This document shows positions 16,333 to 33,718 of a stretch of 38,695 nt of DNA, one piece after another. The DNA is taken from the NCBI RefSeq assembly GCF_016906305.1, contig NZ_JADDOL010000025.1:1-38695 (forward strand), written 5' to 3'. Both the position numbers and the translations under genes were made by a program. Source of the DNA: Alloalcanivorax marinus. GTDB lineage: Bacteria; Pseudomonadota; Gammaproteobacteria; Pseudomonadales; Alcanivoracaceae. The notes below the pieces were generated by a model that had not been told where the DNA came from, did not search any database, and saw nothing but the letters and a program-made list of their open reading frames with translations. Positions within the stretch are counted from its first letter, which is position 1; every line of letters starts with the position of its first letter.

Positions 16333-19300
16333 ATGAGCGGGTTGAACAATCTGTCCGTGCGGCTGAAGATTCTGTCCGTGGCGGCGCTGGGGGTGTTCCT
16401 CTTCCTGGCTTACTTTCTCTACAGTTATTACATCGCGGAAACCAATATCCACCACCTGCAGCGAGTGGAGCAGCACGACTTTCCGGTGCTGGAACTGGTC
16501 AATGCCAACAACGTGGAGTTCCGCAGCATCAGCGCCGCCTTCGACGGCGCCATCAACCGCATCGACGGCGAGGCGCTGACCAAGGCCCGCGAGCGCTCCG
16601 ACCGCTTCCTGGAACGGCTCGGCGACATCGAACGGCTGGACCCGGACCTGGGGCCCCAGGTGGACGCCTTGCGCGCCGCCTTCCTTGCCTATTTCAGCAG
16701 CGCCGACGCCCTGGCCCACGACCTGATCGAGGACCCGGTGGCGATGCTCGACGGCTTCGAGCGAATCCAGGCCCTGCGCGCCCAGCAGGCGGAATACGAA
16801 GACGCCCACAACGCCTTCGAGGCGGAGCGCTACGCCAGTTTCCGCGATACCCTCAACGCCAGCCGCGAGGACAACAAGAGCACCCAGCGCATCGGCCTGG
16901 TGCTGGGCGCCATCGCCTTTACGCTGCTGGGACTGATCGCGCTGCGTGTCACCCGCGCCATCACCCGACCCCTGGAAGACGCGGTCAGCGCCGCCGACAG
17001 CATCGCCGGAGGTAACTGGGACACCGAGATCCGCAGCGACAGCCGCGACGAGACCGGCCATCTGATCCGCGCCATCCGCAAGATGCGCGACGCCCTGAAA
17101 ACACGCAGCGAGGAGCAGCAGCGTCAGGAGCGGGTCAAGAATCAGCTCGCTGAACTGAACGCGCTGATGCGCGGTGAGATGACCCTGGAGCAACTGGGTC
17201 GCAATCTGCTCGGCTATCTGGTGCCGGCGCTGAATGCCCAGGTGGGCGCGTTCTATACCTGGGACGAGGAGGGCGCCCGGCTGAGCCTGAGCAGCGCCTA
17301 TGCCATGCAGCGCCGCAAGCAACTGGCCAACCACTTCGCCCTGGGTGAATCCCTGGTGGGACAGTGCGCGCTGGAAAAGAAAAGCATCGTGCTGGAGCAG
17401 GTGCCGGAGGAATACATGATCGTCGGTTCCGGCACCGGCCAGGCGGTGCCGCGCAACGTGGTGGTATTGCCGGTGCTGCACGACGACGAGCTCAAGGGGG
17501 TGCTGGAAGTGGGCGCCTTCGAGCGTTTCGACGACCAGGCGCTGACCTTTCTGGAGCAGGGCGCGGCGGTGATCGCGGTGGCCTTGCACAGCGCCCAGAG
17601 CCGGCTGCGGCTGGCGGCCATGCTTGACCGCACCCGTGAGCAGGCCCGCGCCCTGGAAGAACAGAAAGAGGAAATGGCCCGGGTCAATCAGGACCTGGAA
17701 GAGCAGGCCATGGAGCTGTCCGCCTCGGAATCTCGGCTTCAACAGCAGCAGGAAGAGCTGCGCGCCATCAACGAGGAACTGGAATCCCAGACCCAGGCCC
17801 TGCGCGCTTCGGAAGAATCCCTGCAGGCCCAGCAGGAAGAACTACGCGTCACCAACGAGGAGCTGGAGGCCCAGGCCAAGCTGCTCGGCGAGCAGAAAAC
17901 GGAGATGGCGGACAAGAACCAGGAGCTGGAGCTGCTGCATCGGGAGCTGGAAGACAAACTCAAGGAACTGGAGCTGTCGTCGCGCTACAAGTCCGAGTTC
18001 CTGTCCACCATGTCCCACGAGCTGCGCACGCCACTTAACTCGATCCTGATCCTGTCCAATGCCCTGGGCCAGAACAAGAAGGGCAACCTGGACGAGAAGC
18101 AGGTGGAACATGCCCAGGTGATCCATTCCGCCGGCGCCGACCTGCTGTCGCTGATCAACGACATCCTCGACATTTCCAAGATCGAGGAGGGCAAGATGGA
18201 CGTGGTGGTGGACCCCATCGCGCCCGGCGAACTGGGGGACCATTTCCGTCGTCACTTCTCCCACGTGGCGGAAAACCGCGGCGTCGCCTTCCACATCGCC
18301 CTGGGCGACGACCTGCCGGCGCATTTCTACACCGACCGCCAGCGTCTGGAGCAGATTCTCAAGAATCTGCTGTCCAACGCCCTCAAGTTCACCGAGGACG
18401 GCAGCGTCACCCTGGGCGTGCATCGTCCGGGTCCGGAGGAGCGCGTGCCCGGCCGGCTGGACCGGGCGACCACCCTGAAATTCTCGGTCACCGACACCGG
18501 CGTGGGCATTCCCGAGGACAAACAGAAGCTGATTTTCGAGGCGTTCCAGCAGGCCGACGGCACCACCAGCCGCAAGTACGGCGGCACCGGCCTGGGCCTG
18601 ACCATCTCCCGGGAACTGGCCCGCCTGCTGGGCGGCGAAATCGGCCTGCAAAGCGACGGGCCGGGGCAGGGCGCCACCTTCACCCTGTACCTGCCGGAGG
18701 GCACCGCGGAGCAGGCGGACACCGGGCCGGTGCCGTCGGACGCCATGGACGTGGGCGCCAATGCCGAGGCGCACACCGCGCCCACCCTGCCGTTCGCCGA
18801 GCAGGACGAGGATTACGTGGTGCGCGAGAAAACCGTGCTGGTGGTGGAGGACGACCGGGAGTTCGCCCATGTGCTGGTGGACCTGGCCGCGGATTATGGC
18901 CTGGAGAGCCACGTCTGCCACGATGGCGAAAGCGCCCTGGAGTTCGCCCGCCGCTACCGGCCCAGCGCCATTATTCTGGACATCGGCCTGCCCGGCATCG
19001 ACGGCTGGGCGGTGATGGAAAAGCTCAAGGCGGACCCGCGTACCCAGGACATCCCGGTGCATTTTCTGTCCGGCAAGGACGAGCGCAAGAAAGCCCTGGA
19101 GCTGGGCGCCATCGATTTTCTCGCCAAGCCGGTGAACCAGGAGCAGATCCTCAAGGCGTTCGCCAAGATCGAATCCGCCATCGAAACCAATGTGCGGCGC
19201 CTGCTGGTGGTGGAGGACAGCGAGATCCAGCACCGCAGCATCCGCGAACTGTTTGACCAGAAAGGCGTGCAGATCACCGCGGTGACCAGCGGCGCCGAGG

Positions 19301-31738: not shown

Positions 31739-33718
31739 ATGAGCATCGAAACACTGCCCGCCGACGAGCACGGCGGCGAGAACGTGCAACGCTGGGCGGC
31801 GCGCGGCTTGCCGGTGCCGCCCGGCTGGCGCATCCACCGCGCGGACGTGGCGGGGCTCGGGCACGAGGCGCTGATCCGCCGCCTGGGCGCCTTGCCCGGG
31901 CTGTTCGCCGGCGACCGCTACTGGGTGCTGCACCAGGGCACCATGAACGAAAGCTCCCAGCGCGAAAGCCTCCTCAATCTGGACTCCGACGACGCCCTGG
32001 CGGCGGCCCTGGGGGCGCTGTTCCGCCGTGAGCCGGCGCCGGCCCAGGTGGTGGTGCAGGCGCTGCCGCGCCAGCGCGCCGCCGGCGTGCTGTTTACCCG
32101 TCACCCGCTGCGCCAGGACCTCTCCCATATGGTGGTGGAAGGGGTGGTGGATGGCGGCGCCGAACGCCAGCGCCTGATCTTCGACGACGCCGGGCGGCTG
32201 GTGTATCACAGCGACAGCGAGCGCGAGGCCCTGGAACAGGTGGTCGGCGGCGAGCGCCTGCTGGCCCTGGGCGAGCAGCTGCGCACCCTGTTCGACCGGC
32301 CCCAGGCCGGTGAGTGGGTGTTCGATGGCGACACCCTGTGGTTGTTGCAGACCCTGCCGGTGGGGTCGTTGCCGGTGCCCCGGGAGGTGTGGGTCCGCCG
32401 CGCCGCTCCGGCGCTGTTCAACCAGGCGGTGACGCCGCTCTGGTACACCCTGGCCGGCCGCTGGCTGAAGACCCGCTTCTGGACGCCGCTGGCGGCCCGG
32501 CGGGGCTGGACGGATCTGGCCCGGGTGGAGCCCTATCGCCGCCAGCACAGCCACCTTTATCGCAATGGGGAATTCTTTCGCCGCCTGCTGCCGGACCACC
32601 CCGGCGCGGTGGACAAGGTACCTCCGGCCTGGCAGCCGCCGGCCACCGGCAACGACCCGCCGGCGTCACCGCCCGGGCGGTGGCGGCGGGCGCGGATGGG
32701 CCTGGAGCTGGCGTGGCTGGCCCGTCAGCTGGGCCGTTGGCGCGATCCGGCCACCGACCGGGAACGGCTGTGGCGGGGCTTGATGTCGCTGGATCGGCTG
32801 GGGGAGCGGCTGGCGCGGCTGGACGGCGAGCTGTCGTACCTGATCCTGCCCGATCTGCTGGCCGGTCGGCGCCGGCCTCTGCCGTTGGCGGCCTTGCTGG
32901 ACGACGGCGAGGCGGACGCCCTGCGCGCCGTACTGGCCGGCGACCAGGCCGCCCTGGACGCCAGTCCTCTGCGACCCGGCGCCGACCCGGTGCACGCGCC
33001 ACTGCGGGAAAAGCCCGCCCAATGGGGCAGTTTGCGGCCGGCCCGGCGCACGCTGGACCTGGCCGAGCCGGCCTTGCCGGCGACCCTGGAGCGCTGGCTG
33101 GTGCCGTGGCGGCGGGCCCGCCGCCTGCGGTTCGAACTGGGTGAACGGCTGCGCCGGCTGCTGCGGGCGGTGGCCGCGGTGCGGGTCAATGAGGGTCTGC
33201 TGGCCCACCCGGACGACGTGTTCTTTCTCTACTTCGACGAGCTGTGGGCGCTGTGGATGGAGCGGCGGTTGCCAGCGTCCGCCGCCGGCGAGGTGCTCGG
33301 CCAGCGCAAGCTCCGCTACCTGGAAGACGCCCACGCCGGCGCGCCGGACTGGAAGATGGACCGCATCGGTTTCGGCTTCGGCGGCGGGGGCCGGCCCAGC
33401 CCGGTGCTGCGCGGCAGCGGCCTTTGCCCCGGCCGGGTCGAGGGGCCGCTGCGCCGCCTTTGCAGCGCCTGGGGCCTGAACCGTCTGCAGCCCGGTGACA
33501 TCATCGTGGTGGATCAGGTGGACCCGAGCTGGGTGCCCTGGCTGGCCCAGGCCGGCGGCCTGGTGATCGCCGGCCGCGACCCCTGCAACGCCGCCGCCGC
33601 CCTGGCCGTGGCCGCCGGCATTCCGGCGGTGTGGGGCGTCAGTGACGTCATGCACAGCGTCGTCGATGGGCAAGAGGCGGAGCTGGACGGGGAGGGCGAG
33701 TTGAAAGTTAAAAGTTAA
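31739..33718 (+). CDS. Degenerate PEP-utilising-enzyme-like protein (ATP-grasp plus swivel domain)
   Basis: This 659-aa protein begins like PEP synthase or PPDK ATP-binding domains (GGENVQRWAARGLPVPPGW, about residues 12-30). Its end resembles the phosphohistidine swivel domain: LCPGRVEGPLRRL, LQPGDIIVVDQVDPSWVPWL, then GIPAVWGV. The active-site pattern S/C-H-x-A is replaced by N617-A618-A-A, so the phosphorylatable histidine is missing. It is probably not a classical PEP synthase; it could be a specialised or inactive homologue. The last residues LKVKS come from a heptamer repeat that provides the stop codon. It lies 12 bp after the DUF1461-like gene and ends the plus-strand run. Confidence 0.7.
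   Translation: MSIETLPADEHGGENVQRWAARGLPVPPGWRIHRADVAGLGHEALIRRLGALPGLFAGDRYWVLHQGTMNESSQRESLLNLDSDDALAAALGALFRREPAPAQVVVQALPRQRAAGVLFTRHPLRQDLSHMVVEGVVDGGAERQRLIFDDAGRLVYHSDSEREALEQVVGGERLLALGEQLRTLFDRPQAGEWVFDGDTLWLLQTLPVGSLPVPREVWVRRAAPALFNQAVTPLWYTLAGRWLKTRFWTPLAARRGWTDLARVEPYRRQHSHLYRNGEFFRRLLPDHPGAVDKVPPAWQPPATGNDPPASPPGRWRRARMGLELAWLARQLGRWRDPATDRERLWRGLMSLDRLGERLARLDGELSYLILPDLLAGRRRPLPLAALLDDGEADALRAVLAGDQAALDASPLRPGADPVHAPLREKPAQWGSLRPARRTLDLAEPALPATLERWLVPWRRARRLRFELGERLRRLLRAVAAVRVNEGLLAHPDDVFFLYFDELWALWMERRLPASAAGEVLGQRKLRYLEDAHAGAPDWKMDRIGFGFGGGGRPSPVLRGSGLCPGRVEGPLRRLCSAWGLNRLQPGDIIVVDQVDPSWVPWLAQAGGLVIAGRDPCNAAAALAVAAGIPAVWGVSDVMHSVVDGQEAELDGEGELKVKS

Follow-up and report, generated by a model that had tools for sequence, protein, structure and literature searches.

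In Pseudomonas putida, the gene of a hybrid histidine kinase stands first in the Cfc cluster, together with CheB/CheR and receiver genes, and a chemotaxis role of this CheB/CheR pair was ruled out (PMC4951495). The target of Cfc is CfcR, a GGDEF/EAL response regulator (PMC6849547). Bacillus cereus RsbK has the architecture CHASE3-HAMP-GAF-S-helix-HK-REC and is the substrate of RsbM, which adds methyl groups to the helix that precedes its kinase domain; RsbM is described without a paired methylesterase (PMC4574943). Two other systems connect PilZ or cyclic di-GMP (c-di-GMP) to assembly ATPases: in Xanthomonas citri, PilB is bound at its N-terminal domain by a PilZ protein (PMC8389850), and MshE-type ATPases, including the type II secretion-type ATPase PA14_29490 of P. 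aeruginosa, bind c-di-GMP, while the other T2SSE ATPases tested, canonical GspE among them, did not (PMC4624772). Here, we analyzed a stretch of 38,695 nucleotides (the window), contig NZ_JADDOL010000025.1 (C18) of the 4.05 Mb genome of Alloalcanivorax marinus, in which genes for a hybrid kinase, CheR, a lone receiver (REC), CheB, and a REC-PAS-PilZ response regulator (RPZ) are followed by the type II secretion system (T2SS) genes gspE-M (Pfam; Table 1). Genomes, contigs, and loci are cited by our labels (G, C, and L numbers).

The earlier note on this DNA had described five signalling genes that lead into gspE-M, all on the same strand and never more than 52 bp apart, and both the Pfam assignments and our check of the junctions confirmed it. 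Gaps along the run measured 14, 32, 36 (18 from the GTG start of RPZ), 16, 52, 8, 12, 17, and 12 bp; the 16 bp, as claimed, separate the stop of the PilZ gene from the start of gspE. The reported ATGA overlaps were found at four junctions, each of 4 bp (kinase/CheR, if CheR begins with the ATG at 19995, H/I, I/J, and L/M), while E/F share a single base in TGATG and J/K overlap by 13 bp. A scan of positions 15500–34500 gave one sigma-70-type promoter-like site (1.7 in shuffled sequences) and nine intrinsic-terminator-like sites (10.9 in shuffles), that is, no excess of either. Between 22015 and 23153, where a terminator and promoter would mark independent expression, this sigma-70-type and intrinsic-type scan found neither. 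We consider it likely that module and T2SS form one functional unit, and from this arrangement we infer that the module may control secretion.

The junction is a fixed feature of the family. Our sample of 46 genomes, which we read as Alcanivoracaceae, had gspE in every genome and RPZ in 44 (E up to 1e-30), and in all 44 RPZ was directly upstream of gspE on the same contig and strand, with 3–139 bases between the match ends. The earlier note had also allowed for the modules never being linked in relatives, which these 44 genomes contradict. All five module genes preceded gspE in 18 of the 20 fetched family loci, although the kinase of L045 was cut by a contig end and L039 was cut at gspH. From stop to start, with start codons chosen by script, RPZ and gspE were 1–29 bp apart in 17 of these 18 loci and 116 bp apart in one. 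Alcanivorax sp. 1008 (L073), whose stretch held a receiver match and in which the module was not seen, was left out of the linkage counts. The structural half of the earlier reading is therefore strongly supported.

The remaining two genomes, G030 and G031, encode gspE-M without the module. RPZ was not found in them at 1e-30, and in the fetched stretches the module kinase, CheR, and CheB were not found beside gspE; that of G031 held one weak receiver match (33%), and the G030 assembly is 86% complete. The module looks as if it had been lost as a block.

Outside the family the connection is rare. An order-wide search for RPZ at 1e-75 matched 28 of 244 genomes, 10 of them from the family, and a class-wide search at 1e-70 matched two of 274, the window's own included. 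Full-length RPZ occurred in four non-family genomes of the order sample (G342, G052, G431, and G372). G342, from another family, has the module, RPZ, a 706-residue REC-PAS-GGDEF-EAL gene, and then gspE; in G052, module and RPZ are separated from gspE by two opposite-strand open reading frames, one MscS-like and one without a match. The non-family matches ending near residues 206–272 were read as other REC-PAS proteins, and among these GGDEF-EAL was confirmed in L155, L131, L157, L158, and a second match in G342. In a REC-PAS tree, the G342 PilZ protein groups with the family (support 95/96). We dropped a domain-swap history in which PilZ replaced GGDEF-EAL, as the base of this tree is without resolution and its branches are long. 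Viral scans for RPZ and for the kinase found no relative.

In the class sample (274 genomes), 13 genomes had a CheR of the module type (1e-60), and nine of these also had gspE (1e-140). Only G000 and G052 carried both genes on one contig. In the other seven they lay on different contigs, a count in which fragmented assemblies may conceal links (the CheR of G278 sits at a contig end); six of the seven are from outside the order. Since none of these six genomes with both parts had them linked, the coupling of the module to gspE-M is lineage-specific. As to whether the module always accompanies gspE-M, RPZ stood before gspE in every family genome that carries it, but G030 and G031 do without the module and in other lineages the two stand apart.

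This distribution could mean that the two blocks met once in an ancestor and were kept by descent without a functional link. The confinement of the linkage to one family and G342, with G052 as a loose case, agrees with such frozen synteny, as do the seven class genomes with both genes apart. Yet the upstream flank was not kept, the SDR gene next to the module being present in one of the 17 loci whose sequence reaches far enough upstream, and the RPZ/gspE gap stayed short in 17 of 18 loci while RPZ diverged down to 56% identity among relatives. We regard mere descent as quite improbable.

The kinase has HAMP (206–256), GAF (283–419), a coiled coil (about 420–548), HisKA (553–620), HATPase (668–789), and three REC domains, and by eye two likely transmembrane segments flank a periplasmic domain. 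H562, D883, D1005, and D1152, the phosphorylation sites expected by position, are invariant in 15 aligned rows, the window included. In the same rows, coil residues 465–515, between GAF and HisKA, are invariant at 45 of 51 positions (88%, versus 81% for HisKA), which places this segment at the top of the 1170 kinase windows of 51 residues. Its motif was present in 36 of the 49 non-family kinases with a CheR beside them, after kinase matches not spanning residues 500–600 or of at most 150 bits were dropped, and in one of the 30 HisKA loci of the window's genome (28 with a readable H-box), namely the window's own. By analogy with RsbM, which methylates the S-helix of RsbK (PMC4574943), we take the coil as a likely substrate of CheR and CheB and a candidate methylation site.

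By sequence, the nearest solved structures of CheR are 5ftw and then 1af7. The CheB residues S12, H39, and D132 fall on the GAS, QH, and NDG segments when aligned with solved CheB structures, and they are invariant in 19 rows including the window. The lone receiver is 64% identical to the RPZ receiver (over residues 7–143). The label "chemotaxis-derived" given by the earlier note fits CheR and CheB only, as a CheW or methyl-accepting chemotaxis protein (MCPsignal) domain was found in none of the five (Pfam, E up to 0.001), in which they differ from a canonical Che system with its CheA, CheW, and MCP. The window's genome has five CheW matches, and the four listed are on contigs C1 and C55, not C18.

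One could suppose that the module's CheR and CheB serve the other chemosensory systems of the cell and are merely located in this operon; all 46 family genomes do have CheW-domain genes, and 44 have at least two CheR genes. However, the module CheR falls in a score band of its own (about 136–148 bits, versus 166–201 for most other copies) and comes after the kinase in all 18 fetched module loci, and G030 and G031, which lack the module, each keep one other CheR-domain gene in the whole genome. A cassette of kinase, CheR, CheB, and receiver alone is also widespread among phyla: CheB was near 48 of 53 CheR-adjacent kinases, in loci picked by RPZ similarity among the patterns listed (80 of 579 relatives retained) and so biased to such modules. 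This alternative is very improbable.

The AlphaFold2 model of RPZ had a mean predicted local distance difference test score (pLDDT) of 75.0 and a predicted template modelling score (pTM) of 0.41, and its secondary structure fits REC, a helix at 117–158, PAS, and PilZ. PilZ domains that bind c-di-GMP carry the motifs RxxxR and (D/N)xSxxG. R274 and R278 of the first are invariant in 16 rows, and the serine of NxSxxG is kept in 24 of 25 distinct family segments. GspE matches GSPE_N1E but gave no match to PF05157, which is the kind of N-domain that binds c-di-GMP (PMC4624772), and a separate c-di-GMP receptor beside GspE is therefore plausible. The REC-PAS-GGDEF-EAL gene between the PilZ gene and gspE in G342 supports a c-di-GMP input, in one genome only.

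With these parts, we propose that a methylation-tuned kinase module controls the T2SS through RPZ, and give this proposal an even chance. The kinase would sense a periplasmic and a cytoplasmic (GAF) signal; CheR and CheB would reversibly methylate glutamates of the near-invariant coil before HisKA and so set the kinase gain; and the kinase would phosphorylate two receivers, the lone one and that of RPZ. The two receivers are paired here by the same argument, receiver identity, that paired CfcD with CfcR (48%; PMC4951495), and the lone one would control CheB in trans. Phosphorylation and c-di-GMP would jointly switch RPZ, which would act on the inner-membrane platform of the T2SS. There, the GspE ATPase would be its most likely target, in parallel to the binding of PilB by PilZ. 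Methylation of the kinase is rather more probable than its absence, and c-di-GMP as a co-signal is evenly balanced. Direct contact of RPZ with GspE is a tentative suggestion. A full post-translational adaptation circuit for secretion, in which kinase methylation provides a chemotaxis-like memory while phosphorylated RPZ and c-di-GMP gate the GspE motor, seems rather unlikely.

Several observations weigh against this proposal. The motif serine is replaced by glycine in the window's own PilZ (22897–22914) and in the near-identical G026, and by threonine in G431 and G372, replacements that may weaken c-di-GMP binding. The coil motif was absent from 13 of the 49 non-family CheR-adjacent kinases and present in five of 11 without an adjacent CheR. 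E/Q pairs seven residues apart in the coil were rejected as proof of methylation sites, as three were found against a shuffle mean of 2.24 and 7797 of 20000 shuffles scored as high. According to an unpublished remark of the authors, the crinkle phenotype of P. putida persisted in mutants of cfc genes apart from cfcA (PMC4951495). In G431 and G372 the module and a full-length RPZ (its PilZ called by Pfam in G431, uncalled at 0.001 in G372) are present, and the best gspE match is on another contig. Lastly, the T2SS does not seem to need the module, since G030 and G031 keep gspE-M without it, with a GspE that shares 79% identity with that of the window, inside the range of other genera.

The last two points, and the fact that the Cfc kinase of P. 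putida works through a c-di-GMP-making regulator (PMC4951495, PMC6849547), fit a different explanation, namely that the genes are only co-expressed: a shared transcript would serve one life stage, such as growth on an oil surface, and the module would act on c-di-GMP, biofilm, or pili, never on the secretion machinery itself. But it is the PilZ regulator itself that stands beside gspE in every family genome that has it, and the link recurs in G342, from a different family. Co-expression alone is possible, though on the unlikely side.

Table 1. Features of the gene run, in window positions
Feature	Position	Strand	Evidence or remark
Hybrid histidine kinase, 1221 aa, 3x Response_reg	16333..19998	+	Pfam HAMP, GAF, HisKA, HATPase_c
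Kinase coil core, residues 465–515, candidate methylation segment	17725..17877	+	45/51 residues invariant, 15 rows
CheR-type protein methyltransferase; in-frame ATG at 19995	19983..20876	+	Pfam CheR 2.3e-39
Lone receiver protein	20891..21361	+	Pfam Response_reg
CheB methylesterase domain without receiver	21394..21978	+	Pfam 9.1e-55
REC-PAS-PilZ response regulator (RPZ); in-frame ATG at 22015	21997..23136	+	Pfam; AlphaFold2 model
gspE, T2SS ATPase	23153..24667	+	NCBIfam TIGR02533 705.8 bits (cut-off 630.25)
gspF	24667..25887	+	Pfam
gspG, major pseudopilin	25940..26371	+	Pfam
N-methylated pseudopilin at gspH position	26380..27105	+	Pfam N_methyl only; named by position
gspI	27102..27572	+	Pfam
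gspJ	27569..28207	+	Pfam; start taken at ATGA overlap
gspK	28195..29283	+	Pfam
gspL	29296..30459	+	Pfam
gspM	30456..30977	+	Pfam
Lit-like membrane protein	30995..31726	+	PF07314 28.3 bits (cut-off 24); conserved near gspM
PEP-utiliser/PPDK_N-like protein, final gene of run	31739..33718	+	Pfam

Pfam called GspE, F, G, I, J, K, L, and M in the window. gspC, gspD, and gspN are absent from it and lie together on another contig, C2, where GspD scored 529.3 bits with TIGR02517 (cut-off 351.35), so that a GspC-N set with a GspE equivalog and a GspD secretin is present, GspH being assigned by position. These three genes are at L195:10526–14367 (minus strand; G000:C2), and convergent with them, at L195:7927–9450, is the gene of a protein with HAMP and class III nucleotide cyclase domains and a weak CHASE8 match.

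The locus had been drawn as far as 33718; module and gspE-M are inside that span, but it also includes two further genes past gspM, the Lit-like and the PEP-utiliser-like one. The Lit-like gene was present in 19 of 20 fetched loci, both module-less ones included (the twentieth is incomplete), so that its association with gsp is broader than that of the module. In two other genera, a protein of 430–432 residues without a Pfam match is encoded after gspM (L032:2869–4158, minus strand; L040:15813–17108, plus strand), and an opposite-strand S15 hydrolase gene also precedes the Lit-like gene. In the module-less L036 (G031), a methionine synthase match starts about 33 bases past the Lit-like match, and the PEP-like gene was not found in that stretch. 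Upstream of the run, between the SDR gene and the kinase, an inverted repeat with a REP-like look was seen by eye at 16083–16144.

To our knowledge, T2SS switching beyond transcription is poorly understood, and the operon is a candidate T2SS switch in marine oil degraders, with REC-PAS-PilZ as the switch and GspE as the motor. That the arrangement is kept across the oil-degrading Alcanivorax-type family suggests that export is switched by a signal relay. G030 and G031 are natural module-less controls, and the presence of both the writing and the erasing enzyme makes hybrid-kinase methylation testable. Clusters of kinase, CheR, CheB, and receivers (Cfc) and methylation of a kinase by a partner methyltransferase (RsbK-RsbM) are already known; what is new here is that the output is a PilZ protein and that the junction with gspE-M is fixed throughout a family. 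The titles and abstract openings that we searched describe no such link of the module to the T2SS, which leaves it unproven that the link is unpublished.

Compared with Cfc (CfcABCDE and CfcR), the window likewise clusters a hybrid kinase gene with genes for CheR, CheB, and receivers; the differences are a lone REC between CheR and CheB, the junction of the module with gspE-M, and an output that ends in PilZ, a possible reader of c-di-GMP, where that of Cfc ends in GGDEF-EAL, a maker. In P. putida, locus L063 encodes a REC-PAS-GGDEF-EAL protein, probably CfcR, whose REC-PAS half is 46% identical to RPZ over residues 12–206, and in P. thivervalensis (L067) the order is kinase, CheR, CheB, REC. 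The CHASE3 sensor domain (PF05227) expected of a Cfc-type kinase was not matched at E up to 10 in the three kinases examined, two of which gave weak TarH matches (0.0087 and 0.66). With RsbK-RsbM-RsbY, the window shares a HAMP-GAF-coil-HisKA-HATPase-REC kinase beside a CheR-type methyltransferase, but it has CheB, as Cfc does, and three REC domains versus one in RsbK, and its output is PilZ-type instead of sigma-B. The PilB-PilZ-FimX system of X. citri, in whose description no receiver, CheR, or CheB is named (PMC8389850), belongs to a type IV pilus and uses a separate PilZ protein and FimX, while the window belongs to a T2SS. Finally, MshE-type ATPases bind c-di-GMP themselves, whereas the candidate receptor of the window is a separate PilZ protein.

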